Positions 3,080-47,768 of a DNA stretch of 64,000 bases are shown in pieces. Source of the stretch: an alpha proteobacterium U9-1i (GTDB taxonomy: Bacteria; Pseudomonadota; Alphaproteobacteria; Caulobacterales; Aquidulcibacteraceae); NCBI GenBank assembly GCA_000974665.1, contig BBSY01000002.1, positions 1,860,001-1,924,000 on the forward strand, in the 5' to 3' direction. The notes under the pieces are model-generated. The model had not been told where the DNA came from, searched no databases, and was given only the letters and a program-made list of their open reading frames with translations. How positions within the stretch are numbered: the first letter of the stretch is position 1; each line of letters starts with the position of its first letter. A program made the translations under genes and the position numbers.

Positions 3080-5053
3080 TCACGTGTTCGCCTTTGCGAC
3101 CAGCTTCACAACGTCGCCCATGATGCTGGTGATTTTGAAATCCTTCGGCGTGTACACCGCCGCCACGCCCATCTGCTTCAGCGCCAAAGCGTCCGCCGGC
3201 GGGATGATGCCGCCGACGATCAGCGGCGCGTTCACGCCCTCCGCACGCATCAGCCGCACTACTTCCTGTACCAGGTCGAGATGCGAGCCGGAGAGGATGG
3301 AGAGGCCCACCGCATGCGCGCGCTTTTCCTTCGCCGCCGCGACGATCTCGGCCGGCGTCAGGCGAATACCTTCGTACACGACCTCCATGCCCGCCGCGCG
3401 CCCGCGCGCCGCGATTTGCTCAGCGCCGTTGGAATGTCCATCAAGCCCCGGCTTGCCGACCAAGAACGTGAGCTGCCGCCCCAGCTTCTCCGAGAGCGCC
3501 GCGACGTCGGCTTTCACCGCGTCCAAATCCTCGATGTCGCTTTCCACGATCAGCGCCACGCCCGTCGGCGCGCGATACTCGCCAAACACCTCGCGCAACG
3601 CGAACGACCATTCGCCTGTGGTCACGCCCGCTTTCGCGCACGCCAAAGACGCCGGCATCACGTTGCGCTCTTCTTTCGCCGCTGCGCGCAAGTCTGCGAG
3701 CGCTGCTTCAACCGCGCCGGCATCGCGCTGCGCGCGCCAAGCTTTGAGTCGCGCGATCTGCTGCGCTTCAACCGCGAAATCCACCGTCTGAATACTCTTC
3801 TCGCCCACCTCGAGCGGGGAGGGTTCGCCTTCGGTGTAGCAATTCACGCCGACGACCTTGATCGCGCCCGTCTCGATCGCCTCGGCGCGCTTGCGGTTCG
3901 ATTCCACCAGCGACGCTTTGAGATAGCCAGCTTCCACAGCCGCTACCGCACCGCCCATCGCCTCGATGTTCTTCAACTCGACCCGCGCGCCTTCCATGAG
4001 CTGCGCAACTTTGGCTTCGATCACCTTCGAACCATCGAAGATGTCCTCGTACTCCAGCAAATCGGTCTCATAGGCGAGGATCTGCTGCATCCGCAGCGAC
4101 CATTGCTGATCCCAAGGCCGCGGCAGCCCTAAAGCTTCGTTCCACGCCGGCAGTTGCACGGCGCGGGCGCGTGCGTCCTTCGACAGCGTCACCGCCAACG
4201 TCTCCAGCAAGATGCGATAGACGTTGTTCTCCGCTTGCTGCTCTGTCAGCCCCAGAGAGTTCACTTGCACGCCATAGCGAAAGCGCAGCGCGCTTGCGTC
4301 CGTGACGCCATAGCGCTGGCGGCCGATCTCTTCCCACAAGCGCCCGAACGCGCGCATCTTTGAAAGCTCAGTGATGAAGCGCATGCCGGCGTTCACGAAG
4401 AACGAGATGCGCGAGAACACCGCCGCGAAGCGTGCCTCCGGCACTTCGCCGCGCGCCTTCACCTCATCCAGCACCGCGATCGACGCCGCCAGTGCGAACG
4501 CCAGCTCTTGCTCCGGCGTCGCGCCGGCTTCCTGCAAATGGTAGGAGCACACGTTCATCGGATTCCATTTTGGAATCGCGTCGAGGCTCCAGGCGATCGT
4601 ATCGGCGGTGAGCTTCAGGCTCGGGCGCGGCGGGAAGATGAACGTCCCGCGCGAGAGATATTCCTTGATGATGTCGTTCTGCGTCGTGCCAGTGAGCTTC
4701 TTCGGATCGGCGCCTTGCTCTTCCGCGAGCGACACATAAAGCGCGATCAGCCACGCCGCCGGCGCGTTGATCGTCATCGACGTGTTCATGCGCTCAAGCG
4801 GAATGCCGTCGAACAGCGCCCGCATATCGCCCAGATGCCCAACCGGCACGCCGACTTTGCCAACCTCGCCTCGCGCCAGGATGTGGTCGCTGTCGTAACC
4901 GGTCTGCGTCGGTAGATCGAAGGCGACCGAGAGGCCGGTCTGCCCTTTGGCCAGGTTCGACCGGTAGAGCTTGTTCGACTCCGCCGGCGTCGAGTGCCCA
5001 GCGTAGGTGCGGAAGATCCAAGGCTGGTCCGGTGCGTGCTGAAAAGGAGTCAT
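3080..5053 (-). CDS. ecm: Ethylmalonyl-CoA mutase (MeaA/Ecm type)
   Basis: This adenosylcobalamin enzyme converts (2R)-ethylmalonyl-CoA to (2S)-methylsuccinyl-CoA in the ethylmalonyl-CoA pathway. The N-terminal catalytic TIM barrel carries RTYAGHSTPAESNKLYRSNL, GLSVAFDLPTQTGYDSDH and MNTSMTINAPAAW. Those residues are typical of Ecm/MeaA and differ from methylmalonyl-CoA mutase, which reads FDLATHRGYDSDH. The last 130 residues are the B12-binding domain, with GLDGHSNG as the DxHxxG cobalt-ligand motif. Fusion of both domains in about 660 residues is usual. The start is ATG 5053; a GTG at 5071 adds six residues, and neither has a clear ribosome site. The gene sits 42 bases after the MFS gene in the same direction, with ccr diverging 2.4 kb upstream, so pathway context agrees. 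Confidence 0.93.
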   Translation of the reverse strand: MTPFQHAPDQPWIFRTYAGHSTPAESNKLYRSNLAKGQTGLSVAFDLPTQTGYDSDHILARGEVGKVGVPVGHLGDMRALFDGIPLERMNTSMTINAPAAWLIALYVSLAEEQGADPKKLTGTTQNDIIKEYLSRGTFIFPPRPSLKLTADTIAWSLDAIPKWNPMNVCSYHLQEAGATPEQELAFALAASIAVLDEVKARGEVPEARFAAVFSRISFFVNAGMRFITELSKMRAFGRLWEEIGRQRYGVTDASALRFRYGVQVNSLGLTEQQAENNVYRILLETLAVTLSKDARARAVQLPAWNEALGLPRPWDQQWSLRMQQILAYETDLLEYEDIFDGSKVIEAKVAQLMEGARVELKNIEAMGGAVAAVEAGYLKASLVESNRKRAEAIETGAIKVVGVNCYTEGEPSPLEVGEKSIQTVDFAVEAQQIARLKAWRAQRDAGAVEAALADLRAAAKEERNVMPASLACAKAGVTTGEWSFALREVFGEYRAPTGVALIVESDIEDLDAVKADVAALSEKLGRQLTFLVGKPGLDGHSNGAEQIAARGRAAGMEVVYEGIRLTPAEIVAAAKEKRAHAVGLSILSGSHLDLVQEVVRLMRAEGVNAPLIVGGIIPPADALALKQMGVAAVYTPKDFKITSIMGDVVKLVAKANT

Positions 5054-5095
5054 AGCGTGCTCATGCTGCACTGCAAAAAGCCAGACGGCTAGACC

Positions 5096-6463
5096 CTAGC
5101 GTTGTTGAGGCGAAGCCTCGTCAATCGCGCGCGCCTGAGTGCGCGGCAGAGCCAGTAAAACTAAGGCGCCGATCAATGCCGCGGCCGCCAGCGCCAGCAA
5201 CGCTGGTTCGCTTGCGCCGTTATTGGCGGTGCGGATACGGCCGATGATGTCCGGGCCGAAATGGCCGCCAAGATTGCCGAAGGCGTTGATCCAGGCGATG
5301 CCTGCCGCAGCGGCAGTGCCGGAGAGAAACGCCGTCGGCAATGACCAGAACGTCACCACCCACGACAATGTGCCGGAGAGCACCAAAGCCAACGCCGCGA
5401 TCGCGGCGATCGCCGAATGGCCGAACGCCGCGAGCAACAAGAGCCCAACCATCGCCACCAACATGCCGCCGGCCGCGTGCCAGCGTCGTTCGCCCGTGTG
5501 GTCGGAGTGGCGGCTCCACAAGATCATAACGATAGCCGCCGTGCCCCAAGGGATCATGTTGATGAGGCCGATGCGAAGGAAATCGTCAGGCGCGAGCCCG
5601 AGTTCCTGAATGATCGTCGGCATCCAAAAGTTGGCGGCGTACAAACAGCCCGCGCCACAAAAATAAACCAGCGCCAGCGCCCACACGCGCAGATCGGCGA
5701 AGGTCTCCGCAAATCCGTGCCGCACGCCGAGCACGCTTTTGTGCGCTTCGTCCGCGTCCACGGCGGCGACGACAAAATCCTGTTCCGCCGCACTCAGCCA
5801 GCGCGCCGAGCGGGGACCGTCGGGCAACAGGAACAGCACGACCACGCCCATGAGCACGGACGGAATGCCTTCGAGCAGGAACAGCCATTGCCAGCCGCGC
5901 CAACCGCTCACGCCATCCATGTATTGCATGATCGCGCCCGAGAGCGGTGAGCCGATCAGGTTCGAGAGCGCAATCGCGCTCATGAAAAGCCCAACCATCT
6001 GCGCGCGGCGCCCCGCCGGAAACCAATAGGTGAGATAAAGGATGACACCTGGAAAGAAGCCGGCCTCAGCGACGCCCAGCAGAAAGCGCAAGAGGTAGAA
6101 CGTGAACTCCGCGTCGGTGCAACCGAACGCCGCCGCGATCGGTCCCCAATGCAATGCGCCGGTGAACATGAAGCATGACGAGATGACGCCCCAACTCACC
6201 ATGATGCGCGCGATCCAGCGCCGCGCACCGACCTTCTGCAGGATCAGATTGCTCGGCACCTCGAACAAAAAATAGCCGATGAAGAAAATTCCCGCGCCGA
6301 AGCCGTACATGGCGTCGCTCAGCGCCAGATCGCCCGCCATCTGCAGCTTGGCGAAGCCGACATTCACCCGGTCGAGGAACGCGGCGATGTAGCAAAGGAA
6401 CAGGAGCGGGATCAGCCGCCAGACCACTTTGGCGTAGAGCGTTGTCTCGGCCTTGGCGTCCAT
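5096..6463 (-). CDS. MFS transporter, anion:cation symporter (ACS) type
   Basis: The 455-residue protein has twelve predicted transmembrane helices and starts with a cytoplasmic leader followed by FLCYIAAFLDRVNVGFAKLQM. The DRVNVGFA signature is characteristic of the ACS family of organic-anion importers (tartrate, 4-hydroxyphenylacetate, phthalate and similar). A longer reading frame to 6592 exists, but ATG 6463 has a GGGGGA ribosome site and lies 11 bases after the upstream GNAT stop. The gene is directly upstream of ecm, which suggests uptake of an organic acid that feeds the ethylmalonyl-CoA pathway. That link is inference from position only. Confidence 0.87.
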   Translation of the reverse strand: MDAKAETTLYAKVVWRLIPLLFLCYIAAFLDRVNVGFAKLQMAGDLALSDAMYGFGAGIFFIGYFLFEVPSNLILQKVGARRWIARIMVSWGVISSCFMFTGALHWGPIAAAFGCTDAEFTFYLLRFLLGVAEAGFFPGVILYLTYWFPAGRRAQMVGLFMSAIALSNLIGSPLSGAIMQYMDGVSGWRGWQWLFLLEGIPSVLMGVVVLFLLPDGPRSARWLSAAEQDFVVAAVDADEAHKSVLGVRHGFAETFADLRVWALALVYFCGAGCLYAANFWMPTIIQELGLAPDDFLRIGLINMIPWGTAAIVMILWSRHSDHTGERRWHAAGGMLVAMVGLLLLAAFGHSAIAAIAALALVLSGTLSWVVTFWSLPTAFLSGTAAAAGIAWINAFGNLGGHFGPDIIGRIRTANNGASEPALLALAAAALIGALVLLALPRTQARAIDEASPQQR

Positions 6464-6474
6464 CGTGTCCCCCG

Positions 6475-6981
6475 CTATTCCTCTGCGCCCATCAGATCGA
6501 GGTGCATGATGTGAAGCCCCACATAGCCCTCGCGGGGATGATGGAACGCTTCCGGCACGGTGGCGATGATTTTGAATCCGATAGAGACCCATGCCTTCAC
6601 CGCAGCGTGGTTCGCTGCAACGACGGCGTTGAATTGCATGGCGCGATACCCTGCGTCCCGCGCCCAGGCGACCGCATGCGCCCCAAGCGCGCGCCCAACG
6701 CCTTTGCCGCGCGCATCCGGGTGAACGATGAAGCCGGCATTGGCGACATGCGCGCCCGGTCCCAATTGGTTCGGATTCACCTTCGCGCTTCCCACGACGG
6801 CGCCAGCGTCATCGACCGCGACGAACACGTGCGTCGGCGGCCGCGCAACCCAAATCGCGCGCGCCATCTGTTCGCTGACGTCGGTTGGATACGTAAACGT
6901 GTCGCCCGCCGCGGCGACAGCTCTTAGGATCGGCCAAACCTGCGGCCAATCGCTTTCGGAGAAGGGGCGGATCGAGGTCAC
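6475..6981 (-). CDS. GNAT family N-acetyltransferase
   Basis: This compact 168-residue single-domain acetyltransferase has motif A as VHPDARGKGVGRALGAHAV and a typical motif B with AAVKAWVSIGFKIIATVPEAFHH. The end of the protein resembles GNATs that acetylate small amines or antibiotics, but no substrate can be named. It starts at GTG, since no nearby ATG is in frame. It is the second gene of the presumed YeaQ-like, GNAT, MFS, ecm, GNAT transcription unit, with 47 bases separating it from the YeaQ-like gene. Confidence 0.85.
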   Translation of the reverse strand: MTSIRPFSESDWPQVWPILRAVAAAGDTFTYPTDVSEQMARAIWVARPPTHVFVAVDDAGAVVGSAKVNPNQLGPGAHVANAGFIVHPDARGKGVGRALGAHAVAWARDAGYRAMQFNAVVAANHAAVKAWVSIGFKIIATVPEAFHHPREGYVGLHIMHLDLMGAEE

Positions 6982-7028
6982 CGCCGTGCGCTACACGGCG
7001 GCAATCCTCAACGCAATTGCGCGGTTCG

Positions 7029-7286
7029 TCAGGCCGCTCGTCGGAAAAGCCCGATCACGAGCAGGAGGATGATTGCGCCGATAGTGGCGTAGACGATGGC
7101 CGTAATCAGCGGATTGACCACAACAAAAGCGACACCCAGTTGCGGCAACAACCAGCCGGCGATGATGGCGCCGATGACGCCGACAACAAGATTGCCGACA
7201 AGACCGAGCCCGTAGCCGCGCACGACTACGCCCGCGAGCCAACCGGCGACGATGCCGACGATGATCCAAATCAGAATGTCAGGCAT
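7029..7286 (-). CDS. GlsB/YeaQ/YmgE family small membrane protein
   Basis: This is an 85-residue, very hydrophobic protein with three transmembrane segments. It has the glycine-rich pattern IIVGIVAGWLAGVVVRG, then GLVGNLVVGVIGAIIAGWLLP, that defines the transglycosylase-associated (YeaQ/GlsB) stress membrane proteins. The biochemical role of the family is unresolved. A strong ribosome site (GGAGGGAGAC) precedes ATG 7286. The same frame stays open for another 780 bases upstream, but that part is antisense to ccr and not coding. The gene faces away from ccr across a 171-base regulatory region. Confidence 0.88.
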   Translation of the reverse strand: MPDILIWIIVGIVAGWLAGVVVRGYGLGLVGNLVVGVIGAIIAGWLLPQLGVAFVVVNPLITAIVYATIGAIILLLVIGLFRRAA

Positions 7287-7381
7287 GGACGTCTCCCTCC
7301 GCGAGCCCAAACGCCCGCCGGTACTGTAACGCCGCCGCCACGGTTTGGCTCCCAACGTGGTTGACGTAGCGCGGTCCGTGC

Positions 7382-7395
7382 TCGCACCTGCGAAA
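7382..7395. promoter_or_regulatory. Palindromic candidate operator shared with the mcd upstream region
   Basis: The sequence TCGCACCTGCGAAA contains the perfect inverted repeat TCGCA-CC-TGCGA. It sits 62 bases before the ccr start, inside the divergent spacer between ccr and the ecm-containing minus-strand run. The same 14 bases occur at 19770-19783, just before mcd. Regulators of this pathway in other Alphaproteobacteria (ScfR/RamB/PccR family, CcrR) bind palindromes. Assignment of this site to any of them is inference. Confidence 0.5.
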
Positions 7396-7457
7396 CAGGA
7401 CATTGACGCAGTGCAGCAAAAGCGCTCACTCTTGCAGCCCCTAAGGGAGGCCAGGGC

Positions 7458-8723
7458 ATGGCGCAGGCGAACTTGAAGTCGGTGAAGGACATTTACCCTA
7501 TCGGGGAGATACCGCCGCAATTCCACGTACCGCAGAAAATGTGGGCGTGGGCGATCCGCAAGGAGCGCCACGGCCGCCCCGCAACGGCGATGCAGCTGGA
7601 AGAAGTGCCTGTCCCCGAAGTCGGCGAAGACGAAGCGCTCGTGCTCGTGATGGCCGCAGGCGTAAATTACAATGGCGTGTGGGCCGCCTTGGGCGAGCCG
7701 ATGAGCGTGCTCGACGTCCACAAGCAGCCTTATCACGTCGCGGGCTCCGATGCGTCGGGCATCGTTTGGGCCGTCGGCTCCAAGGTGAAGCGCTGGAAGC
7801 CTGGCGACGAGGTCGTCATCCATTGCAATCAGGACGATGGCGACGACGAAGAATGCAACGGCGGCGACCCGATGTTCTCGCCCAGCCAACGCATCTGGGG
7901 CTACGAAACAACCGACGGCTCCTTCGCGCAATTCTGCAAAGTACAGGCGCGCCAAATGATGCCGCGCCCGAAGCATCTCACCTGGGAAGAGGCGGCCTGC
8001 TACACCCTCACGCTCGCGACCGCCTATCGCATGCTGTTCGGCTGGCGCCCGAACGTGCTGCGTCCTGGCCAAAACGTTTTGGTGTGGGGCGCGTCCGGCG
8101 GCCTCGGCGTATTCGCGACGCAGCTTTGCGCCGTGTCAGGCGCGCATGCGATCGGCGTCGTCTCCGATGAGAGCAAAAAAGATTATGTGCTCTCGATGGG
8201 CGCGAAAGCCGTGCTCAACCGTAAGGACTTCAATTGCTGGGGGCAGCTGCCGAAGGTCAACGGCGAGGGCTTCGCCGAGTACATGAAAGAAGTCGCCAAG
8301 TTCGGCAAAGCCGTGCGCGCCATCACTGGCGGCAAGGATCCCGACATTGTCTTCGAGCATCCGGGCGAAGCCACGTTTCCGGTATCGGTGCGCATCGTCA
8401 AACGCGGCGGCATGGTTGTGATCTGCGCCGGCACCACTGGCTACAATCTCACCATGGACGCGCGTTATCTCTGGATGCACCAAAAGCGCGTGCAGGGCTC
8501 ACACTTCGCGCACCTCTATCACGCCGCCCAAGCCAACCAGCTCGTCATCGATCGCCGCATCGACCCTGCCATGGGCGAAGTGTTCCCCTGGGACAAAATC
8601 CCCGACGCGCACGAGAAGATGCTCGATAACAAGCACACGCCCGGCAACATGGCCGTGCTGGTGAGCGCACCGCGCTCGGGGCTGCGCACCTGGGAAGACG
8701 TTGTCGAGGCGAGTGGGGGTTAG
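7458..8723 (+). CDS. ccr: Crotonyl-CoA carboxylase/reductase
   Basis: This NADPH-dependent enzyme reductively carboxylates crotonyl-CoA to (2S)-ethylmalonyl-CoA, the committed step of the ethylmalonyl-CoA pathway for acetate and C1/C2 assimilation. It is a zinc-independent medium-chain dehydrogenase/reductase of 421 residues. The N-terminal segment DIYPIGEIPPQFHVPQKMWAWAI, the internal VNYNGVWAALGEP and the nucleotide motif VWGASGGLGVFATQL are closely Ccr-like. FEHPGEATFPVSV lies in the region linked to CO2 and substrate binding. GGGAGG precedes ATG 7458. The stop overlaps the stop of the convergent protease gene by four bases (TTAG). Confidence 0.95.
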   Translation: MAQANLKSVKDIYPIGEIPPQFHVPQKMWAWAIRKERHGRPATAMQLEEVPVPEVGEDEALVLVMAAGVNYNGVWAALGEPMSVLDVHKQPYHVAGSDASGIVWAVGSKVKRWKPGDEVVIHCNQDDGDDEECNGGDPMFSPSQRIWGYETTDGSFAQFCKVQARQMMPRPKHLTWEEAACYTLTLATAYRMLFGWRPNVLRPGQNVLVWGASGGLGVFATQLCAVSGAHAIGVVSDESKKDYVLSMGAKAVLNRKDFNCWGQLPKVNGEGFAEYMKEVAKFGKAVRAITGGKDPDIVFEHPGEATFPVSVRIVKRGGMVVICAGTTGYNLTMDARYLWMHQKRVQGSHFAHLYHAAQANQLVIDRRIDPAMGEVFPWDKIPDAHEKMLDNKHTPGNMAVLVSAPRSGLRTWEDVVEASGG

Positions 8724-9511
8724 GGGCGCTCAATTGCGTCGACGGGAAGGGCGTTGTAATCGACGACTTCGGTCCCGTCCTGGACTGCGCGCAGGCCGTG
8801 AAGTGCGTATGCAATGTTCAGGTAGTGCAAAGTAGCGTCGAGGCCATCTATAGCGCCTCGCATGATGATGCCAGCAACACCTTGCTGGGTCTCATTGTAG
8901 ATCAACCCTCCGCTCAGCCCGGCAAGACTTCGAATATTTGGTTCCCGGCGCAGTCGGATTTTCGCGGTTCGGAGAGTGGTGTCTTCGAGTGTGTTGCCGC
9001 GGTCTTTGAAGGCCAGGGCGCTGTATGCGGCTGCGATACCGTCGCCTTCAATCCAAGTCGGTTCGTTGAGCACGCCGTGAGCCGTAAGGCTATCTCCGAT
9101 CCGACTGGTAACGATGGTGCGTTCGTCCAAGACGTATAGACCGTCGCCGTAGCGAGACAGCAATCGCTGTGGTCCTAGCTTGATGATCGCCAAGTCCACT
9201 ATATCGGTGTCTTGCGCGTGCCCCCAACACTCGACCGGGCAGTGCACAGCTTGGACGGTTGAACCGCCCTCCAACTCTTTACCGAAGACGACAACAAGGT
9301 TCGCCCAGGAGTGTCGTTCGATACCAGACCCTAGGATATGCCGGCACGTAAGCCCGTATGGTAAACCCTTATAGTAAAACAGCGAGATCGTTCCACCTGA
9401 GGTGCAATAAGGGTGCCCCTCAAAGTTTGTTTTGAAGATAGCTGGTCGAATGCACTCTGCAGCGTCTTGCCTAATCACCAGACCATTTGAGAGTTCATAA
9501 ACTCGCTTCAC
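8720..9511 (-). CDS. Trypsin-like serine peptidase-fold protein, A/T-richer insertion
   Basis: With a start at GTG 9511 the protein has 263 residues. His58 (LTCRHIL), Asp106 (DIVDLAIIKL) and Ser200 (AGLSGGLIYN) fall in the order and spacing of the chymotrypsin triad. GLSGG matches the GxSGG active-site motif. No signal peptide is visible, so it is probably cytoplasmic. The frame also opens to ATG 9625, but that start lies inside the GFA gene and adds a charged tail, and neither start has a good ribosome site. Base composition is visibly lower in GC than the flanks, with TTA and CTA codons, which suggests horizontal acquisition. No family closer than trypsin-like was recognised. Confidence 0.7.
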   Translation of the reverse strand: MKRVYELSNGLVIRQDAAECIRPAIFKTNFEGHPYCTSGGTISLFYYKGLPYGLTCRHILGSGIERHSWANLVVVFGKELEGGSTVQAVHCPVECWGHAQDTDIVDLAIIKLGPQRLLSRYGDGLYVLDERTIVTSRIGDSLTAHGVLNEPTWIEGDGIAAAYSALAFKDRGNTLEDTTLRTAKIRLRREPNIRSLAGLSGGLIYNETQQGVAGIIMRGAIDGLDATLHYLNIAYALHGLRAVQDGTEVVDYNALPVDAIERP

Positions 9512-9572
9512 AGACGCGAGATTATCACGATTCCGGGTGGTTTCGCGACGTTCGGCGGTCTTGGCGAGCGGC

Positions 9573-10028
9573 CTATAGATGGCGCGTTTCCCCCGGCGGA
9601 TTGAACCAATTGTCGCCGCGCCCATCGGCGTACGTGATCGTGCCGCTCAACAATTCCTCCGGCGTCGCATCGTCGATGCAGGCGACCTGGATGGCGACGT
9701 AATCGCCGCCGATCTCCGGGATGTTGCCGTACGAGTACGAGCGCACGCCACAGGTCGCGCAGAACGGCGCGTGGGCCTGCTTCGAGTTCCACTGATAATC
9801 GCTCACCGCGTCCTTGCCGCTTAGCAACCGAAACTCCGCCGGCTTGATGCCAACGCTCCAATTCCGCGTCTTCGTGCAGATCGAGCAATTGCACTTCAGC
9901 GTGCCGTTGGAGAAGTCGATGTCGGCTTCCCAACGCACTGCGCCGCAATGGCAAGAGCCGTAATTGTTTTGAGTGTCATGCGGGCCTCCTTTGTGCGTAG
10001 GACGTTCAGGCGAACGCTCATCCGACAA
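9573..10028 (-). CDS. GFA family (glutathione-dependent formaldehyde-activating-like) protein
   Basis: The protein has the zinc-cysteine pattern of the GFA/CENP-V fold: GSCHCGAVRW near the start, KCNCSICTK in the middle and FCATCGVRSYSYG later. Members bind zinc; many have no proven formaldehyde activity, so the function is open. The in-frame start is TTG 10028. A far better start signal (AGGAGG, five bases, ATG at 9979) lies just before the conserved region but is out of frame, and it would reach a stop after 27 codons. Either the TTG is used or a one-base frameshift has occurred. Confidence 0.78.
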   Translation of the reverse strand: MSDERSPERPTHKGGPHDTQNNYGSCHCGAVRWEADIDFSNGTLKCNCSICTKTRNWSVGIKPAEFRLLSGKDAVSDYQWNSKQAHAPFCATCGVRSYSYGNIPEIGGDYVAIQVACIDDATPEELLSGTITYADGRGDNWFNPPGETRHL

Positions 10029-10082
10029 ACGGTGACGCCATGCTCGGCTTTTCTTGCCGCAATAGCGCTCTACATGTGCAAA

Positions 10083-10114
10083 GCCAGCGCCCTCCCATGA
10101 CGGAGAGCGCTGGC
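10083..10114 (-). terminator. Hairpin terminator after the lipoprotein gene
   Basis: GCCAGCGC and GCGCTGGC form a perfect 8-bp stem, extended by partial pairing of the inner CCTCC/GGAGA, 35 bases past the stop of the minus-strand lipoprotein gene. No strong U-run follows, so factor-independent termination is plausible but not certain. Confidence 0.5.
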
Positions 10115-10148
10115 CTCGCCCAGTTTGCCCCCGGAGCTCAGGTCAAGC

Positions 10149-10484
10149 TTACGGAGTCGATGGCGCCGGTGTGGCCACGGTGACATTGCCGGTGCTGTCG
10201 ATCATCACGTTGACGCTGGCGCCGTTTTGCGTGGCGGTCGCCGTCCAATGGCCGTCGGCGTTCTGCGTCAGAGCCGTGACATTGGTGTAGCCGGCGGTTT
10301 CGATACGCGTGCGCGCGTCTGCTTCGGTAAGCGTGAGGCTTGGCGCCGGCGGCAGCGGATCGGTTGTGGTGATTTCCGCCGGAGGAGGCGCTTCGACTTC
10401 GGTTGTCTGTCCGCACGCGGCGAGGCCGGCTGCTGCAACAGACGCGACGGCGGCGATCAGAAGTATTCTCGGGTTACGCGACAT
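10149..10484 (-). CDS. Small lipoprotein of unknown function, PepSY-like layout
   Basis: A lipoprotein signal peptide ends in LAAC (Cys24) and is followed by a proline/threonine-rich linker. The C-terminal 60 residues (LTEADARTRIETAGYTNVTAL, then DGHWTATATQNGASVNVMID) match the general shape of a single PepSY-type or YpeB-like fold, in which a helix packs on a small sheet. This is a structural impression, not an identification. AGGAG lies before ATG 10484. The protein is probably anchored in the envelope. Confidence 0.75.
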   Translation of the reverse strand: MSRNPRILLIAAVASVAAAGLAACGQTTEVEAPPPAEITTTDPLPPAPSLTLTEADARTRIETAGYTNVTALTQNADGHWTATATQNGASVNVMIDSTGNVTVATPAPSTP

Positions 10485-10610
10485 GAGGGGCTCCTAGTGC
10501 GCGTTGACCCCCCACGTGGCGGGACGCTACGGCCTCTCGCGCGCGGCGCACGTGAATTTCCGTGCATGATTGCATTTGAGACGTAAAATTCGCGCGGTTA
10601 CGGAGCTTTC

Positions 10611-11336
10611 ATGCTGCACATCGGCATTCTCGCACACAGCGCCGACGGCGCCGGCCTCTGCTATCTCGAAATGTGTCGAGAAGGCGCCCGTAGAAGCGGC
10701 GCGCATGAGCATCCGGAAATCACACTGTCCATTCTGCCGATGGGTCCAACACTGCCGCTTTGGGAGCGCGGCGACCTCGACGCCATCAATGCGTACCTCA
10801 TGCGCAGCGCCCAACGCCTCGCCGACGCCGGTTGCGACTTCTTCGTCTGCCCCGACAACACCGCCCACATCGCCCTCGACGCCGCGCGATCGCCTTATCC
10901 GCTGCCTGGGCTGCACATCGCCGAGATTGTCGCGCAGCGCGCGAAGGCCGATGGCCGCGAGCGCGTCGCTCTGCTTGGCACGAATTGGACCATGAAGGGC
11001 CCCGCCTACGCCGCGGCGTTCGCGCGCGCCGGCGTTACGCTCGACATTCCGCACGAGGCCGAACGGGCGATGATCGATCGCGTCATCTTCGACGAATTGT
11101 GCCAGGGCGTGCTCAATGCGGCTTCGCGAGAAGCCTACCTGCGCGTCATTGCGCGCATGAAAGGCGAGGGCTGCGACGCCGTCGCGCTCAGCTGCACCGA
11201 GATTCCCCTCCTCATTACGCCGGAGGTTGCGCCGCTGCCGACGCTCGATTCCACGCGTCTTTTGGCGCGCGCGGCGGTCGCGGTCGCAAATGGTGAACGC
11301 CCCAAGCCGGTCTGGCGCGGGGGAGCCATGCTCTAG
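10611..11336 (+). CDS. Aspartate/glutamate racemase family protein
   Basis: This 241-residue cofactor-independent racemase-fold enzyme has two catalytic cysteine regions: FFVCPDNTAHIAL near residue 80 and ALSCTEIPLLI near residue 190. It interconverts amino-acid enantiomers or acts on a related substrate. The CPDNTAH and SCTEIP boxes fit the aspartate racemase branch rather than MurI. A CGGAG ribosome site precedes ATG 10611. The gene stands alone between the divergent lipoprotein gene and the cold-shock cluster. Confidence 0.85.
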   Translation: MLHIGILAHSADGAGLCYLEMCREGARRSGAHEHPEITLSILPMGPTLPLWERGDLDAINAYLMRSAQRLADAGCDFFVCPDNTAHIALDAARSPYPLPGLHIAEIVAQRAKADGRERVALLGTNWTMKGPAYAAAFARAGVTLDIPHEAERAMIDRVIFDELCQGVLNAASREAYLRVIARMKGEGCDAVALSCTEIPLLITPEVAPLPTLDSTRLLARAAVAVANGERPKPVWRGGAML

Positions 11337-11511
11337 AAGCGGCGTAAAGCGCTGGCATTGCTCGGCCAAAGCGCCTACATGAGCCCTATCGTTTTCGTCG
11401 CGTGACGCTCTCTGTCCCTCGCTGTCGCGCCGGATTGTCTGCCGTTTTCCTTCGAGTTCGAGCTCGCCGGGGCTGTCCTGGGCGGGCAACACGTCCATTG
11501 GGAGACGGTTC

Positions 11512-11718: not shown

Positions 11719-11724
11719 TCGGCC

Positions 11725-11937: not shown

Positions 11938-11968
11938 CGCTGAAACGGCGTCAGCAGAAAGGGCCACA

Positions 11969-12418: not shown

Positions 12419-12423
12419 AGGCC

Positions 12424-12663: not shown

Positions 12664-12699
12664 GCGCTAAACTCGCGGCCTGGGGAGAGGGAAGCGCAC

Positions 12700-14178: not shown

Positions 14179-14209
14179 ATTTGTTTCTCCACACGTCAAA
14201 CAAAGCCCC

Positions 14210-14306
14210 GTCATTCCGGGATCGCGGAGCGATACCCGGAACCCAGGGGCCACAAGCTCGTCGTTGCCCCTGGGTCCCGGATCACGCTCCGCGTGTCCGG
14301 GATGAC
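14210..14306 (+). repeat. Dispersed palindromic intergenic element, copy 1
   Basis: The 97-bp element is bounded by GTCATTCCGGG and CCGGGATGAC. It holds a central hairpin (CCCAGGGGC/GCCCCTGGG) and a self-complementary arm on each side, so it could fold as a three-armed structure. Related copies lie at 27861, 41681 and 47769. This copy sits between the M20 gene and the chagasin-like gene. Confidence 0.9.
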
Positions 14307-14338
14307 GGAATGTGTTTGTCCCGCTTAAGGAGCCACCG

Positions 14339-14791
14339 ATGCGCATCATGATGTTCTCAGCAATTCTGTTCGCCGCCGCGTGCGCGCAGCCCGCAGAAGA
14401 ACCCGCCGCGCCAGCCGCGCAGGAGAATTCATCCGTTCCCGCGCCCACGCCAAGCGATGTCGCGCTTCGTATCAACGCCGCCCAAGCTGGGCAGACGGTT
14501 GAGGTCGCCGTCAATCAGCGCTTCGCCGTTGAACTCGTCGGCGTGCCGACGGCCGGCTATGTCTGGCAGCCCGCACAGATCCCCGCCTTCGTCACCCGCG
14601 CAGGCGAAACGTCTGGCAACACCACTCAAGCGCAAAGCCAGCCCGGCTTCACCGGCGGCAATCATTGGGAAGTGCTGATGTTCGCCGCGACTGGCCCTGG
14701 AACGGGCGAGCTCGTGCTTGAACAAAAGCGTCCCTGGGAAACCACCGAGCCGCCGAACCAAACTTTCCGCGTCACGATCGTCGCGCGTTGA
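14339..14791 (+). CDS. Chagasin-like (I42) protease-inhibitor lipoprotein
   Basis: A short signal with the lipobox AAAC is followed by a Pro/Ala-rich linker and a chagasin-type Ig fold. The three inhibitory loops can be read: GVPTAGYVWQ (the NPTTGYxW loop), GFTGGNHWEVLMF (loop with GG) and EQKRPWE (RPW loop). Such proteins inhibit papain-like cysteine proteases, so a periplasmic or outer-membrane role is expected. AAGGAG precedes ATG 14339. The stop overlaps the next start (TTGA). Confidence 0.85.
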   Translation: MRIMMFSAILFAAACAQPAEEPAAPAAQENSSVPAPTPSDVALRINAAQAGQTVEVAVNQRFAVELVGVPTAGYVWQPAQIPAFVTRAGETSGNTTQAQSQPGFTGGNHWEVLMFAATGPGTGELVLEQKRPWETTEPPNQTFRVTIVAR

Positions 14792-15015
14792 TCGTACTCG
14801 GCCAGCTGCTGATCTTCGGCCTCGCTTTCGCGGGCGTCACGGCGTCTTCGATCGGCCTCATCTATTTCGCCGGTCGGGCGGTGAACCGGGCGCAGGCGCG
14901 CGACAACCGCTGGCGTTACGGGGCGATCGCCGCCCTTTGCCTGTGTGGCATTGTCGCGTCGGCGGCGTTGGGCTTTGTCGGCATCGGCGCGATCATGTAT
15001 CTGGCGCAGCGATGA
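14788..15015 (+). CDS. Small two-helix membrane protein of unknown function
   Basis: This 75-residue protein has two strong transmembrane segments (about residues 4-28 and 44-70) joined by a basic loop (NRAQARDNRWRYG). The TTG start overlaps the chagasin-like stop (TTGA), and the stop overlaps the Rieske oxygenase start (ATGA), so translation of all three is probably coupled. No family was recognised. Confidence 0.65.
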   Translation: MIVLGQLLIFGLAFAGVTASSIGLIYFAGRAVNRAQARDNRWRYGAIAALCLCGIVASAALGFVGIGAIMYLAQR

Positions 15016-16070
15016 GCGAGCTTCTCCGCGATCTCTGGTACTTCGCCGCCACCTCCAAGGAGGTGACCGCCGGCAAGATGTTCCGCCGCGAAATCTTGGG
15101 CGAGCCGGTCGTGCTGGGCCGCGACGGGCAGGGCCGCGCCTTCGCGCTGCGCGACATCTGCCCGCACCGCGCCGTGCCGCTCTCGGCCGGCCGCGTCACC
15201 GAAACAGACGGCGTGCAGACAGTCGAGTGCCCGTATCACGGCTGGCGCTTCGGCACCGCCGATGGCGTCTGCAAGCAAATCCCGTCCCTGGTGGAAGGCC
15301 AAGCCTACGAAGCCAGTCGCATTCGCGTGCGCCACTATCCAACGCACGAAGCCAACGGCATCGTGCTCGTGTTCGTGTCGTCCGATCCGCGCTTCGCCGA
15401 TGCGCCGCCACCCGCGCCTGAGTTCGGCTTGGCCGAACTCAGCGAACCGAAATTCGTCATCGATCGCATCTTCGCCGCGAGCATGGACAACGCCGTCGTC
15501 GGCCTGATGGACCCCGCGCACGTGCCGTACGTGCATAATCAATGGTGGTGGCGCCCGCCGAGCACCGGCAAGAAGCTGAAGGAAAAGCGCTTCGTCCCGC
15601 GTGAGCGCGGCTGGGCGATCGAACGCCACGCGCCGGCGTCTAACTCGCTCGCCTACAAATATTTGTTCGGCGGCGCGGTGACGACCGAGATTTCCTTCAT
15701 GCTGCCGGGCTTCCGCTGGGAGGTGGTGGAGACGCCGAAATCGCGCCTCTTCACGCTCACCTGCCTCACGCCGGAAAACGAAAACTCAACCCGCATCACC
15801 CAAGTCACGTATTGGCGCGACGCCATCTGGCTCGATCTCATCAAGCCGATCCTCATCCCCGCCGGCCGCGAATTCCTCGATCAAGACGGCCGCATGGTCG
15901 ATCTGCAAAACAGCGGCCTGAAATACAGCCCCGCCATGCTGTGGATCGACGACATCGACGTGCAGGCAAAATGGTATCTAAAGCTCAAGCGCGAATGGGC
16001 CAAGAGCCGCGAAGAGGGGCGCGACTTCGTCAATCCAATCGAGCCGACGACGCTCAGGTGGATGAGTTAG
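15012..16070 (+). CDS. Rieske non-heme iron oxygenase, alpha subunit
   Basis: The 352-residue protein has an N-terminal Rieske [2Fe-2S] domain, with CPHRAVPL and CPYHGWRF giving the Cys-His/Cys-His ligands. A catalytic domain follows, in which MDNAVVGLMDPAHVPYVH provides the bridging Asp and the two His ligands of the mononuclear iron. Such enzymes hydroxylate or demethylate aromatic or polycyclic substrates and need a reductase, which is not encoded nearby. Sequence style is close to vanillate-demethylase-like oxygenases, but the substrate is not predictable. The stop shares TTAG with the convergent lipoprotein gene. Confidence 0.9.
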   Translation: MSELLRDLWYFAATSKEVTAGKMFRREILGEPVVLGRDGQGRAFALRDICPHRAVPLSAGRVTETDGVQTVECPYHGWRFGTADGVCKQIPSLVEGQAYEASRIRVRHYPTHEANGIVLVFVSSDPRFADAPPPAPEFGLAELSEPKFVIDRIFAASMDNAVVGLMDPAHVPYVHNQWWWRPPSTGKKLKEKRFVPRERGWAIERHAPASNSLAYKYLFGGAVTTEISFMLPGFRWEVVETPKSRLFTLTCLTPENENSTRITQVTYWRDAIWLDLIKPILIPAGREFLDQDGRMVDLQNSGLKYSPAMLWIDDIDVQAKWYLKLKREWAKSREEGRDFVNPIEPTTLRWMS

Positions 16071-16483
16071 GGCGTCAGCACCAGCTCAATCCGCGTTTCG
16101 CGCGGGGTTTCGCCTTCACCGGGCATGTCTTCTTGCAGCACCAATGTTGCCGGCGTGTCGGCCGTGACGCTGAAGTTCAACGTCGCGTCGAACACCTTGT
16201 CGCCTGGATCGGTCCAGCTCACACGCGGATGCGCCGGGGCTTCGGCCAGCACAGCGCCATCCGCGCCCACCAAGCGCACCGGAAACTGGTTCTCGAAATA
16301 CCAATTGCCCGGCGCGAGCCCCGTCACAGCGAGCGGGCTCGTGACCCGCGCGTCAGCGATGGGCGCTTCCACGGACGCAACGTCCAGAGCCGCAGCCACT
16401 TCGGTGGCAGGCGGCGCTGAGGACGGCGCAGGTGGCGAACACGCGGCGGCGAGCAGCGCCGTCAGAATCAATAATCTGTGCAT
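16067..16483 (-). CDS. Lipoprotein with Gmad2 immunoglobulin-like domain
   Basis: The lipoprotein signal ends at LAAAC. After an Ala/Pro-rich linker, one Ig-like domain reads VTSPLAVTGLAPGNWYFENQFPVRL, then SVTADTPATLVLQEDMPGEGE, matching the Gmad2 domain first noted in spore-germination proteins but widespread in Gram-negative envelopes. Its role is unknown. The gene is a single minus-strand unit whose stop overlaps that of the Rieske gene by four bases. Confidence 0.78.
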   Translation of the reverse strand: MHRLLILTALLAAACSPPAPSSAPPATEVAAALDVASVEAPIADARVTSPLAVTGLAPGNWYFENQFPVRLVGADGAVLAEAPAHPRVSWTDPGDKVFDATLNFSVTADTPATLVLQEDMPGEGETPRETRIELVLTP

Positions 16484-16523
16484 CCGGCGACGCTAGCTCA
16501 GCGCCGCCGCCGTGTCAGCTCAT

Positions 16524-18350
16524 TCAAGCCGCGTTGCGTTTTCCCGGCGTGCCTTCCGCGCCGCTCACCGTGAATTGCTTCACCAGACGCGCCAGGTCGT
16601 CGCTTTCGTCAGCGAGTGCGCGGCTGGCGGCGGTTGTCTGCTCCACCATGGCTGCGTTTTGCTGCGTCACCTGATCCATCTGATTGATGGCGACGTTCAC
16701 TTCTTTCAACCCAAGCGCCTGTTCCTGCGCCGACGCCGCGATCTCCGACACCAGGCCGTTGATCTCGGCTACCTTGGCGACAATGCCGGTGATCGCCGCG
16801 CCCGCATGGTTGATGCGCGACACGCCAGACGTGACTTGCTCGGAACTCGTCGCGATCAGGGATTTAATCTCCTTGGCCGCATCGGCGGAACGCTGCGCCA
16901 AAGCGCGCACTTCGCTGGCCACGACCGCGAAGCCACGGCCAGCTTCACCGGCGCGCGCGGCCTCCACGCCGGCGTTCAGCGCCAGCAAATTGGTTTGGAA
17001 GGCGATCTCGTCGATCACGCCGATGATCTGCGAAATTTGCTGCGATGATTGCGCGATCGCGCTCATCGCCGCCACAGCCTCGCTGACGATCTCGCCGCTT
17101 CGCGCCGCTTCCGTGCGCGCTTCGGCCACCGTGGCGTTGGCGTGGGCGGCGCCGGAGGCCGTCTTGGTCACGGTCGCCGTGATCTGATCGAGCGCCGCCG
17201 CGGTTTCCTCGAGCGAAGCGGCCTGCGTCTCCGTGCGGCGCGAAAGATCGTCCGCCGCGCGGCTGATTTCGCTGGTGCCGCTTGAAATGGAAAGCGTGCT
17301 GCTGGAAACCAGGGCCATGGCGTTATCGAGCTGACGGATCGCGGCGTTGAAATCGTCCTTCAGTTTCACGTAACGGCCCGCGAAGGCTGCGTTCACCTGG
17401 CACGTGAGATCGCCCTTCGCCACACGCTCCAGTGAGAACGCCAGCGCGTCGACGACGGCGCTTTGCTCTTTTTCCGCCGCAGCGCGCGCCGCGTCGTTGC
17501 GCGTGCGCTCAGCGGCGGCCTCTGCCTCAAGCCGTTTGCCTTCCTCGGTCGCACGTTCAAGCGCAATAGCGGCGTCCTTGAACACTTGAACGGCGTCCGC
17601 CATGGCGCCCACTTCATCCTTGCGGCCGATCGCCGGTACGTCGATGGCTTTGTCGCCGTCCGCCAAGCGGCGCATCGCGTCCGTCATCTGCGTCACGGGG
17701 CGTGCAATCATGCGCGTCAGCGCGAGCCCGACGCCGACCGAGAGGAGTGCGGAAATGAGCAGGCCGGCCAGCATCACCAGCTCGGCCATCCGCGCCGCGG
17801 ATTCCGAGGCGGCGGCGGCGGCGTTCATCGCGTCCTGCTCTGCGCTCAGCAGCGCATCGATGCCGTCCTCCGCAGGCGCAATCAATTGATCGGCGACGCC
17901 GTCATTACCAACCAACGCGCCCGCTTGAACGCGCGTCGCTGGATTGCGCACCATGCGCGTAGCCGCTGGCACGACGCCTTCGTACCAAGCATCCGCGGCC
18001 GCTTCGACCGCGTCGACGCGGGCGATCTGTTCGGTTTCGCCCGCAACCAGCGCGCGGATGTTGTTCAAGGCCTCCTTGAACCTGGCGCGGTGGCTTTCAA
18101 CCCGGCCCAGATAATAATCGTCGGTGCTGATGATCCATCCGCGCACAGAATTTTCTTGGCGGGCGAGCCGAAACTGGGCGTCGAAGATCGCCGTCAGCGT
18201 GGCGTTCGCTTCGGTGCTTTCCGCGCGCGCCTGGTTCATCGTGTTGATGTTGATCAATGCCGCGCCGCCAGTCGCGCCGATGACCGCGATCACCGCCGAA
18301 AAGCCCAGCAACAGCTTCCGCGAGATCTTGACGTTGTTCAAATTCATCAC
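16524..18350 (-). CDS. Methyl-accepting chemotaxis protein
   Basis: The 608-residue transmembrane chemoreceptor has TM1 at about residues 13-32, a periplasmic four-helix-bundle-like sensor, TM2 near 192-214, HAMP ([24 protein letters not shown]) and a second HAMP-like stretch. The signalling domain has the conserved tip [20 protein letters not shown] and an adjacent [19 protein letters not shown]. It signals through CheW/CheA, whose genes are not in the window. The ligand is unknown. AAGGGGATG lies before the ATG. Confidence 0.95.
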
Positions 18351-18516
18351 CGCGCATCCCCTTATGCGTGAAACGTTCTCGCTTCCGATGCCCGGTGCGC
18401 GTTAAACAAACCTCACCGCAGCTGCGCTTGAGTCGCATGCAGTTGTGGCAAGGTCCGATTAACCGCGAGGCCTCAGGTCTCCGCGTCGAACATTGTTCAA
18501 TTGGGGGAAGCAACAA

Positions 18517-19740
18517 ATGTTAGTCGTGTTGAAGCGCGCAGCGGGCGTGGCGGTCGGTCTCGCCGCACTTGGCGGCGTCGCGCGTGCGGAAGAAGCAAGC
18601 ACCATCGGCGACGCCATCACCGGCGGCGAGCTGATATTCGAACTGCGCCCGCGTTACGAGCACGTCGATCAAACCGGCATCGCCGACGCCGACGCTCTCA
18701 CCAATCGCACGCGCCTCGGCTGGAAAACCGGCACGTACCACGGCTTCACTGGTTTGATCGAATTGGAAGACGTGCGCGCCATCGTTGACGATTACAACGA
18801 CGGCATCCCGCCGGCCGAACCCTTTGCCACGATCGGCGATCCGGAAACAACCGAACTCAACCGCCTTCAACTGGCCTGGCGCGCCAACGCGCATTTCACC
18901 GCCACCCTCGGCCGTCAGAACGTGCAGTTTGACGATCAACGTTTCATCGACGGCTCCAACTCACGCCAGGACGCGCGCACGCTCGACGCATTGCGCGCCG
19001 ATGTGACGTTCGGCGATCTCAAGGGCAGCTATCTCTACGTTGACCAGGTGAACAACACGGCAGACGACTTCACCGATCTCGACACCGAGAGTCATCTGCT
19101 CAACGTCACCAACAAATTCGACGACGCCTTCAGCCTCACAGGCTTCATCTACGCTTTCGATTTCACGACGCCGACGGCGATCAACCAGTCGTCGGAATTC
19201 ATGGGCGTGCGCGCGAGCGGCAAGGTCGAGGCCATGGACACCGAGTTCAGCTACGCGCTGAGCTACGCCAATCAGCAGGACTACGGCAGCTCGCTGGTCG
19301 ACTTTAATCTCGACTACGGCATGGCGAACCTCACGGCGACGCACGGCCAATGGTCTGGCCGCTTGCAGTACGAGACGCTGGAAGGCGACGGCGTGCGCGG
19401 CCTGTTTTTCCCGATCGGCTCGAACACCAGCTTCCACGGCTGGGCCGGCGCCTTCAGCACCAAGCCCGCGAACGGCCTCAACGACTTCAATGCGTCGGTC
19501 ACCTATTCGCCCGGCTGGGACGCCCCGCTCATTGGCGATCTCGCATTCACGGCGCGCTGGTACGAGTTCGAAGCTGAGCGCACCGGCGTCGATCTGGGCG
19601 AAGAGCTCGATTTCGAGATCGCCGGCGATCTCACCGACAAGCTCGGCCTGTTGATCCGCTCCGGCGATTATCGTCGCGGCGATGCGGGTTCGCCGGTGGA
19701 GCGCCGGCGCTTCTGGGTTGAACTGACCTACAAACTCTAA
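18517..19740 (+). CDS. Alginate-export-like outer-membrane porin
   Basis: A signal peptide (LKRAAGVAVGLAALGGVARAEE) is followed by about 380 residues of alternating beta-strand sequence ending in the aromatic-hydrophobic motif ELTYKL, a typical outer-membrane beta-barrel terminus. The pattern LTNRTRLGWKTGTYHGFTGLIELED and LGRQNVQFDDQRFIDGS fits the alginate_exp/porin family, usually an 18-strand barrel. The substrate cannot be inferred. ATG 18517 is preferred over 18493 because GGGGGAAG lies just before it. A palindrome and the mcd start follow. Confidence 0.83.
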   Translation: MLVVLKRAAGVAVGLAALGGVARAEEASTIGDAITGGELIFELRPRYEHVDQTGIADADALTNRTRLGWKTGTYHGFTGLIELEDVRAIVDDYNDGIPPAEPFATIGDPETTELNRLQLAWRANAHFTATLGRQNVQFDDQRFIDGSNSRQDARTLDALRADVTFGDLKGSYLYVDQVNNTADDFTDLDTESHLLNVTNKFDDAFSLTGFIYAFDFTTPTAINQSSEFMGVRASGKVEAMDTEFSYALSYANQQDYGSSLVDFNLDYGMANLTATHGQWSGRLQYETLEGDGVRGLFFPIGSNTSFHGWAGAFSTKPANGLNDFNASVTYSPGWDAPLIGDLAFTARWYEFEAERTGVDLGEELDFEIAGDLTDKLGLLIRSGDYRRGDAGSPVERRRFWVELTYKL

Positions 19741-19762
19741 GCCCGGACCGCGCGACGGCTTG

Positions 19763-19787
19763 CCCTCTTTCGCACCTGCGAAAGGGG
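19763..19787. promoter_or_regulatory. Palindrome before mcd: candidate operator and/or terminator
   Basis: CTTTCGCACCTGCGAAAG is a perfect inverted repeat, extended outwards by CCCT/GGGG. It may end the porin transcript. Its central 14 bases (19770-19783) are identical to those in the ccr/ecm divergent region, and it lies 33 bases before the mcd start, so it is also a candidate regulator-binding site. Confidence 0.5.
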
Positions 19788-19816
19788 GCTAAAGTCTCCG
19801 CAACGTGCGAGGACTC

Positions 19817-21436
19817 ATGTCGGCAGAGCTGGTTTCCAAGCTTCAGGCGGTCGCGGACGCGGCTGGCGCCTATTCGGCGTCCGCCCGGTCGGCGGTGAAG
19901 GCGCGTGTCTCGAACGGTGGCAAGCTCGACCGCGCCGCCATCGACCGCGAACAGCACTTGGTTCACGGCCTCGCCTGGGTCGCCACCTACGCTGAGACGC
20001 TGCGCGAGGTCGCCGATTGGGCGCGGGCATTGAGCGAGAAGGGCGCCCTCAGCGACACCGACCAATCGCTGGCGAAGCTCGTCGCGTCCGAATACGCCGC
20101 GCAACTCGCCGGCGGCCTGCCGATGACGCAAGTCGAGAGCATTCGTCCGGCGGATTTCGGAATCGATGCGCCCCCGGTGCTGCTCACGATCAGCCAAGAC
20201 GAAAAATCCCGTCTCGCTGTGGCGCTGCGCGAAGCGCGCGGTCGCGCGACTTTGGAGAACACCAATCTCGACGAAGACTTCGAGATGATCCGCGATCAAT
20301 TCCGCAGATTCGCCGATGCTGAAGTCGTGCCGTTCGCGCACGGCTGGCACTTGAACGACGAACTGATCCCGATCGAAATCCTGGAACACATGGGCGAGCT
20401 AGGTGTGTTCGGCCTCACCATCCCGGAAGAATTCGGCGGCTCGGGCCTCGGCAAGACGGCGATGTGCGTCGTCTCGGAGGAACTCTCGCGCGGCTATATC
20501 GGCGTCGGCTCCCTCGGCACCCGCTCGGAGATCGCCGCGGAACTCATCCTCACCGGCGGCACGCCGGCGCAGAAGCAGCACTGGTTGCCAAAAATCGCCA
20601 GCGCCGAAATTCTGCCGACGGCGGTGTTCACCGAACCGAACACCGGCTCCGATCTCGCCAGCCTCAAAACCCGCGCCGCCAAACACGGCGAGACCTACGT
20701 TGTCACCGGCAATAAAACCTGGATCACCCACGCGGCCCGCGCAGACATGATGACTTTGCTTGTCCGCACCGATCCGCAAAGCACCGACCATCGCGGTCTT
20801 TCGATGCTGCTCGCGGAAAAGCCGCGCGGCGAGGGCGATACGCCGTTTCCCGCCAAAGGCATGTCGGGCGGCGAGATCGAGGTGCTCGGCTATCGCGGCA
20901 TGAAAGAATACGAGATCGGCTTCGACGGTTTCGAGGTCCCCGCCGCGAACCTGCTCGGCGGTGAAGAGGGGCAGGGCTTCAAGCAATTGATGGCCACGTT
21001 CGAAAGCGCCCGCATCCAAACCGCCGCGCGCGCCGTCGGCGTTGCGCAGTGCGCGCTTGAACTGGGTCTGGCGTACGCGCTCGATCGCAAGCAGTTCGCG
21101 CAGGAGATTTTCAATTTCCCGCGCGTGTCGAACAAGCTCGTGATGATGGCCGCCGAGTTGATGGCCGCGCGCCAGATCACCTATTTTGCCGCGCGCCGGA
21201 AGGATAGCGGCAAACGCTGCGATCTCGAAGCCGGCATGGCGAAACTGCTCGCCGCGCGCGTCGCGTGGGCGGCCGCCGACAACGCACTGCAAATCCACGG
21301 CGGCAACGGCTTCGCGCTCGAATACCCCATCAGCCGCGTGCTTTGCGACGCCCGCATCCTCAACATCTTCGAAGGCGCCGGCGAAATTCAAGCACAAGTG
21401 ATCGGCCGCCGCTTGCTGGAAGAGGGCGCGAACTAA
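19817..21436 (+). CDS. mcd: (2S)-Methylsuccinyl-CoA dehydrogenase
   Basis: This FAD enzyme oxidises (2S)-methylsuccinyl-CoA to mesaconyl-CoA in the ethylmalonyl-CoA pathway. It is an acyl-CoA dehydrogenase with an extra N-terminal helical domain of about 150 residues, and that size (539 residues) distinguishes Mcd from ordinary 380-residue dehydrogenases. The core shows FTEPNTGSDLAS, TYVVTGNKTWITHAARADMM, the C-terminal LQIHGGNGFALEYPISR and ILNIFEGAGEIQ. The start is ATG 19817 with GAGGA before it; a GTG at 19805 is possible. Two other genes of the same pathway, ecm and ccr, are in this window. Confidence 0.9.
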   Translation: MSAELVSKLQAVADAAGAYSASARSAVKARVSNGGKLDRAAIDREQHLVHGLAWVATYAETLREVADWARALSEKGALSDTDQSLAKLVASEYAAQLAGGLPMTQVESIRPADFGIDAPPVLLTISQDEKSRLAVALREARGRATLENTNLDEDFEMIRDQFRRFADAEVVPFAHGWHLNDELIPIEILEHMGELGVFGLTIPEEFGGSGLGKTAMCVVSEELSRGYIGVGSLGTRSEIAAELILTGGTPAQKQHWLPKIASAEILPTAVFTEPNTGSDLASLKTRAAKHGETYVVTGNKTWITHAARADMMTLLVRTDPQSTDHRGLSMLLAEKPRGEGDTPFPAKGMSGGEIEVLGYRGMKEYEIGFDGFEVPAANLLGGEEGQGFKQLMATFESARIQTAARAVGVAQCALELGLAYALDRKQFAQEIFNFPRVSNKLVMMAAELMAARQITYFAARRKDSGKRCDLEAGMAKLLAARVAWAAADNALQIHGGNGFALEYPISRVLCDARILNIFEGAGEIQAQVIGRRLLEEGAN

Positions 21437-27761: not shown

Positions 27762-27860
27762 GCGGGATTGGCGGGCTTTGCGACTATCCATGCAGCGCAA
27801 GCGCCGGAGGTAGCAGGTCTGCTTTTCGCCGCGAACGGACGTCGTCATCGAGGAACCACC

Positions 27861-27961: not shown

Positions 27962-28015
27962 GGACTTAGTTGTTGGAATGCGCATGTCCGCTCCCGGCCA
28001 GAAGCGGACGCGCAC

Positions 28016-47757: not shown

Positions 47758-47768
47758 CAAACACTTCC

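Follow-up and report, generated by a model that had tools for sequence, protein, structure and literature searches.

The DNA analyzed here, a 64,000-nucleotide stretch of the alphaproteobacterium U9-1i (contig BBSY01000002.1, positions 1,860,001 to 1,924,000; hereafter the window), carries the ethylmalonyl-CoA pathway genes ccr and mcd (start of the latter set at ATG 19817) together with a mutase gene presumed to be ecm. The original prediction held that a 14-mer, TCGCACCTGCGAAA, found upstream of ccr and again, within a perfect inverted repeat, upstream of mcd, is an operator through which one regulator acts on the pathway. Both copies were recovered at their exact coordinates on the + strand (7382-7395, within the ccr promoter region, and 19770-19783), and the repeat at mcd, TTTCGCANNTGCGAAA, is the sole perfect one genome-wide. 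Comparison with relatives in the host genus, which we take to be Terricaulis, divides the claim: the operator at mcd is real and the ccr copy is a near copy private to this genome. A regulator common to both genes is still plausible, although on other evidence, namely a conserved element at ccr of the type bound by PhaR (AniA) and PhaR-like elements at mcd, which make PhaR the better candidate.

Identity of the two 14-mers is weak evidence in itself because the window holds many identical 14-mer pairs (170 on the same strand and 143 on opposite strands), and several further pairs of its noncoding stretches have a 14-mer in common, through chance or a dispersed repeat. Such a repeat lies at 14234-14310, 27860-27964, 41707-41751 and 47765-47877, with common blocks such as CTGGGTCCCGGATC and TCCGGGATGACGGA, and explains most of the noncoding 14-mers held in common. 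The exact 14-mer occurs twice in the 4,053,247-base genome, both times inside the window, with two further places at one mismatch. At up to two mismatches the palindrome is found at 16 places in this genome, fewer than the 33 of the reversed control; with the loose palindrome not over-represented and the identity within the window unremarkable, conservation had to decide. The genome-wide search that had been proposed for copies before other pathway genes thus ran, but none of the 16 places was recognized as lying before epi, mch, mcl or propionyl-CoA genes (those genes were not located) and none is located at ecm. We considered phaA as a third target and rejected it: a one-mismatch site 13 bp before the start of the divergent phaR gene lies inside a different conserved block, T.TTGCGCCCGCGAAGG, and is therefore no clean copy of the mcd site.

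A survey of 30 genomes of the genus gave 17 exact palindromes (10 of them directly 5′ of mcd) and no occurrence of the reversed control, while TTCGCANNTGCGAA gives 45 occurrences versus 14 and the palindrome at up to one mismatch gives 75 versus 27 (column sums). About 11 of these 75 places are one repeated motif, whose copy in L159 lies inside a Fur-like gene, with the same context in L192, and which are therefore not operators. The region upstream of mcd was scorable in 29 genomes (28 plus G012; G003 is without an mcd start), and the site is present at up to one mismatch in 23 of them, exactly in 10, and was not found in G011, G012, G013, G021, G025 and G028. Within the 23 sites, 11 of 14 arm positions are invariant, partly by construction given the selection at no more than one mismatch; the arm changes are confined to positions 1, 4 and 15, and both central bases are variable. 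None of 28 mcd loci has a best match of two or three mismatches, where a compensated pair would give two, and this absence together with the pattern of variation gives the element the appearance of a protein site, not of an RNA stem. In the relatives whose sequences were printed, a TANNNT/TTTAGT-like box follows ~6–9 bp past the site, succeeded by a GAGG-like ribosome site and the ATG; a scan of 19600-19900 in this genome for consensus promoter elements returned none. That the mcd palindrome would be a genuine, operator-like promoter site is thus well supported by its conservation.

The data do not support one site being conserved throughout the pathway. The mcd-type dyad, YGCANNTGCR, is present at ccr in one of 30 loci, that of this genome (this genome and 28 others of the genus contributed 29 of the loci, and a genome of the same family the last), and in one of 27 outside the genus. 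What the ccr loci conserve is a different dyad, CATTGTGCGYTGCAGCA, which matches the published PhaR motif. In this genome it begins five bases past the 14-mer, so that the wider dyad stands beside a canonical one with a single central base, and it has both the core YGCRNYGCR and the AT-rich arms of a PhaR operator. With an exact core and no fewer than 6 of 8 flank positions required, the PhaR motif was detected at 29 of the 30 ccr loci (G012 misses it and keeps a loose core), against a background of 6% of random 161-bp windows from the fetched loci. Control of ccr by PhaR is the best reading of this predicted binding site. The longer ccr promoter spacing of this genome varies with the alignment chosen, and we do not put it forward as an insertion.

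Outside the genus, 31 named or order-level ccr loci were scored and 21 match; with four near-genus loci removed, the PhaR motif is found at 17 of 27; the corresponding figures are 4.4% for random windows and 96 of 638 for promoter-like upstream regions. Scoring at mcd covered 80 named loci, 43 of which carry the published 21-base PhaR motif, and seven judged by title and identity to be near the genus were set aside. Among the remaining 73, the strict core TGCRNYGCA is present in 36, against a background of 51 in 558 other upstream regions, and the dyad wider by 1 bp, YGCANNTGCR, is present in 23, against 28 in 558; reversed controls of the two are flat, at 0 and 2 of 80 versus 6 and 8 of 558. 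The extended form GCANNTGCRAA occurs in 17 of the 73 versus 7 of 558, and the strict Terricaulis core TCGCANNTGCGA in 4 versus 3 of 558. The two dyads can share one place: among 26 mcd loci picked as Rhodobacterales-like, TTGCGCTGC is found in 20 and extends as TTGCGCTGCRNNTGCRAA in 19, the dyads overlapping, and in three Caulobacter mcd loci the core of TCGCANNTGCGAAA comes 8 bases after a PhaR-type dyad, the dyads lying side by side.

Sites of the mcd type are also kept elsewhere in the genus. The EIIA(Man)-HPr operon (PF03610, PF00381; manX is the EIIA(Man) gene) carries TCTCGCANNNGCGAAA, near kin of the mcd site and usually 3 bp before a TANNNT box. Of 29 scorable genomes, 19 show it within two mismatches, this genome among them (TCTCGCAAGCGCGAAA); in the other ten the block has diverged further or was not found. 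Others precede a thiolase gene in G022 and TonB-receptor-like and alpha-amylase-like genes (named by reading). Its presence before these genes means that the site is not specific to the ethylmalonyl-CoA pathway.

Further individual occurrences were recorded in passing. TTCGCANNTGCGAA lies 5′ of a valyl-tRNA synthetase (valS)-like gene in three genus genomes (L099 and L109 at ~1501, L117 at 979); in L109 and L117 the distance to the called start is 46 bp. Three genomes (L180:2005, L181:2005, L193:1996) have a one-mismatch site flanked by a peptide deformylase-like gene and a CADD-family (TenA/CADD) gene, with TIGR04305 shown in L193. Two genomes from a different family within the order (L200:1501, L201:1501) carry an exact TTTCGCATCTGCGAAA 75 bp before a thiolase-like gene. 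The exact site at L204:1501 adjoins an ilvC-like gene, and L205:1501, from the same genus as L204, apparently has the same sequence context.

Table 1 Sites and genes of the ccr and mcd regions, in window coordinates
Feature	Position	Strand	Remarks
Acyl-CoA mutase, presumed ecm	3080-5071	-	No operator copy adjoining
MFS	5096-6592		Third in run divergent to ccr
GNAT	6475-6981		Second in run divergent to ccr
Transglycosylase-associated protein (PF04226)	7029-7286	-	First gene of run divergent to ccr
ccr copy, GCTCGCACCTGCGAAA	7380-7395		Holds 14-mer 7382-7395; symmetric in core only; 2 mismatches to mcd palindrome
PhaR-type site, CATTGACGCAGTGCAGCAAAA, 5′ of ccr	7401-7421		Core exact; 7/8 flank positions of the Sinorhizobium meliloti PhaR motif
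ccr, crotonyl-CoA carboxylase/reductase	7458-8723	+	TIGR01751, 628.6 bits (cut-off 378.55)
Porin-like protein (Alginate_exp, PF13372)	18493-19740	+	5′ of mcd in this genome
mcd operator, CTTTCGCACCTGCGAAAG	19767-19784		18-mer; core TTTCGCANNTGCGAAA at 19768-19783; two 8-base arms, CC centre
-10-like box TAAAGT	19790-19795	+	6 bp past mcd operator; putative promoter element
mcd, methylsuccinyl-CoA dehydrogenase	19817-21436	+	Acyl-CoA dehydrogenase family; exact name from pathway context, no family model

The run divergent to ccr comprises the transglycosylase-associated protein, GNAT, MFS and mutase genes, so that ecm is the fourth (Table 1). The mutase scores 520.2, under the methylmalonyl-CoA mutase equivalog cut-off of 876, which would fit ecm. 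A second crotonyl-CoA carboxylase/reductase-like gene, 71% identical, is present in G001 of the same genus (C160:523-1764).

PhaR is a regulator that leaves DNA once polyhydroxybutyrate (PHB) granules form, and the ethylmalonyl-CoA pathway and PHB have acetoacetyl-CoA and 3-hydroxybutyryl-CoA in common. A PhaR regulon requires phaR, and this genome has it (TIGR01848, 162 bits with a cut-off of 109.45; PF07879 and PF05233), divergent to phaA and ~50 kb from ccr; the divergent arrangement recurs in all 26 phaA loci returned for the genus. In the parts of the published accounts available to us, the PhaR motif of Sinorhizobium meliloti is WNWDDNYGCRNYGCRNHHWNW (PMC12542648) and the consensus in Bradyrhizobium diazoefficiens is TGCRNYGCASMA (PMC6201568); manX is listed as PhaR-regulated in S. 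meliloti (its site was predicted, and that study did not examine binding to it; PMC12542648), and PhaR is reported to affect the partitioning of acetyl-CoA flux in Methylobacterium extorquens (PMC6520949). Measured against the systems of S. meliloti, B. diazoefficiens and Rhodobacter sphaeroides (PMC10888616), as far as the same partial accounts go, the present one is alike in that the ccr element matches core and flanks, manX is a predicted target (as in S. meliloti), the sites are promoter-proximal and phaR lies beside phaA. It is unlike them in that ccr and mcd are not among their targets (the main texts of PMC12542648 and PMC10888616, as available, are without ethylmalonyl and crotonyl-CoA) and in that the centre of the mcd and manX dyads is two bases wide, against one in published sites. 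The portion of the literature on PhaR and ethylmalonyl-CoA that was accessible yielded no statement of direct PhaR control of ccr or mcd, and a literature text search for the motif gave no match.

PhaR connects all three genes, by way of the canonical site at ccr, the prediction of manX as a target elsewhere and the canonical sites at mcd in other orders. Furthermore, the half-sites of the mcd and manX dyads resemble those of PhaR (TTTCGCA/TGCGAAA or TCTCGCA/GCGAAA, around two central bases). We therefore propose, as the best explanation and at slightly short of an even chance, that the palindrome before mcd would be bound by a dimeric transcription factor across the promoter, just 5′ of the -10-like box, with PhaR the likeliest such factor. 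That the palindrome is a binding site of this kind has the support of its conservation and its position. Without PHB, PhaR would repress both ccr and mcd, and accumulation of PHB would release both (a sign that we assume), thereby coupling the ethylmalonyl-CoA pathway to the carbon store; PhaR would have to tolerate the wider operator spacing. On this evidence from motifs, mcd is probably controlled by PhaR through the wider dyad. The broader statement, that in a large part of the Alphaproteobacteria PhaR acts directly on ccr and mcd and so controls the pathway, with the Terricaulis mcd and manX sites as a second operator form whose half-sites are 1 bp further apart, is offered tentatively, as a possibility that we would not yet back.

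Several observations weigh against this proposal. The mcd element (19767-19784) fails the PhaR core YGCRNYGCR because its centre has a second base; in a 26-locus scan of mcd, canonical PhaR sites do not rise above background (2 of 26, one of these outside the genus), and few of those loci (4 of 26) show the AT-rich arms of the S. meliloti motif. With this spacing, background-level canonical sites and missing arms, we call the mcd element PhaR-like and not a PhaR site. N3 sites are weak at phaR-phaA, where relaxing the requirement to 5 of 8 flank positions still gives just 11 of 26; of 30 ccr loci, that of this genome is alone in having the mcd-type site; and in this genome TCGCANNNGCGAAA has 17 rows versus 8 in the reversed control (~2×), mostly within coding sequence, as are most of the further motif places. 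The TGCAAA half of the Rhodobacterales sites presumably also resembles half-sites of the ScfR family. Finally, the locus statistics ignore shared ancestry, and Rhodobacterales are over-represented in them.

The difference in spacing between the dyads could also be taken to mean that two factors are at work, PhaR at ccr and another dimeric helix-turn-helix regulator reading TTTCGCANNTGCGAAA at mcd and manX, with the ccr copy a recent addition to the second regulon or a near copy. MarR-, TetR- or Crp-like proteins are the types that we presume from the operator shape. This arrangement is a real contender, if one we would more readily bet against than for. It is favored by canonical PhaR sites being at background at mcd yet kept at ccr, and by the presence of the wider dyad, in few genomes each, before valS-like, TenA/CADD-family, thiolase and TonB-receptor-like genes. 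It is disfavored by the enrichment of both dyads at mcd in other orders, overlapping or adjacent, by manX being a predicted PhaR target elsewhere, and by the lack of a recognized candidate second regulator gene near the sites in the few loci read. A TetR gene at 31627-32256, 10.2 kb past the end of mcd, with a counterpart 8.6 kb past it in L207, was considered as a neighboring regulator, and no link was found.

It is unlikely, though less so than the readings that follow, that the ccr copy is a chance resemblance, with the mcd site alone functional and no joint control of ccr and mcd through the 14-mer. Its occurrence in one of 30 ccr loci fits this view, as does the fact that 14-mers common to noncoding stretches of the window are not rare, but the copy places the exact core TCGCANNTGCGA at promoter position, within one of just two exact 14-mers in 4.05 Mb.

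A terminator stem after the porin gene had been named as the outcome that would overturn the operator, and it did not come true. The stem formed in this genome is strong (-39.1 kcal/mol, z -3.71) and the porin gene precedes it on the same strand, so that an RNA hairpin ending or protecting the porin transcript deserved consideration. However, no terminator-like match is present in 19600-19900, and the combination that marks an intrinsic terminator (a G+C stem, a T-run and a transcript running in) is lacking at the mcd site. The gene 5′ of mcd varies by genome between the porin, an opposite-strand KefB-like antiporter, a Rieske protein, a VIT-type protein and others (named from reading sequences, with a family scan for the porin only); of the 19 loci listed, 10 have their nearest called upstream gene on the opposite strand, and most have a gene other than the porin there. 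This variety of upstream genes between genomes means that the site does not serve as a terminator for the porin gene. Of the 23 sites, 7 cannot form the outermost pair, in a pair table that cannot show a compensated pair given its selection at up to one mismatch, and 0 of 28 loci have a best match of two mismatches. The hairpin reading is therefore largely refuted and very improbable.

Regulators of the ScfR family (RamB, PccR), also named in the original prediction, can be dismissed as the least credible binders of these sites: in Paracoccus denitrificans, where RamB acts on acetyl-CoA assimilation, transcripts of ccr, ecm and mcd rise when RamB is lost, but the RamB operator consists of two boxes 18 bp apart and not a single dyad (PMC10370305, as far as available). 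The present genome has no PF09856 (ScfRs domain) match at E ≤ 0.001, in a search that did give matches in two of its 14 control genomes (Caulobacter vibrioides and Corynebacterium glutamicum), and this result counts against RamB, PccR and MccR alike. Barring a divergent member missed by the family model, the ScfR reading is refuted for this genome.

Switching of the ethylmalonyl-CoA pathway has hitherto been known in pieces, through CcrR, RamB and PccR, each in a single species. CcrR of Methylobacterium extorquens is reportedly a TetR-family protein acting at ccr. If PhaR does act at both the committed step, ccr, and the late step, mcd, the amount of PHB would determine how acetyl-CoA is apportioned between storage and biosynthesis, and the dyad with two central bases would show if regulators of a known family accept operators of altered spacing.

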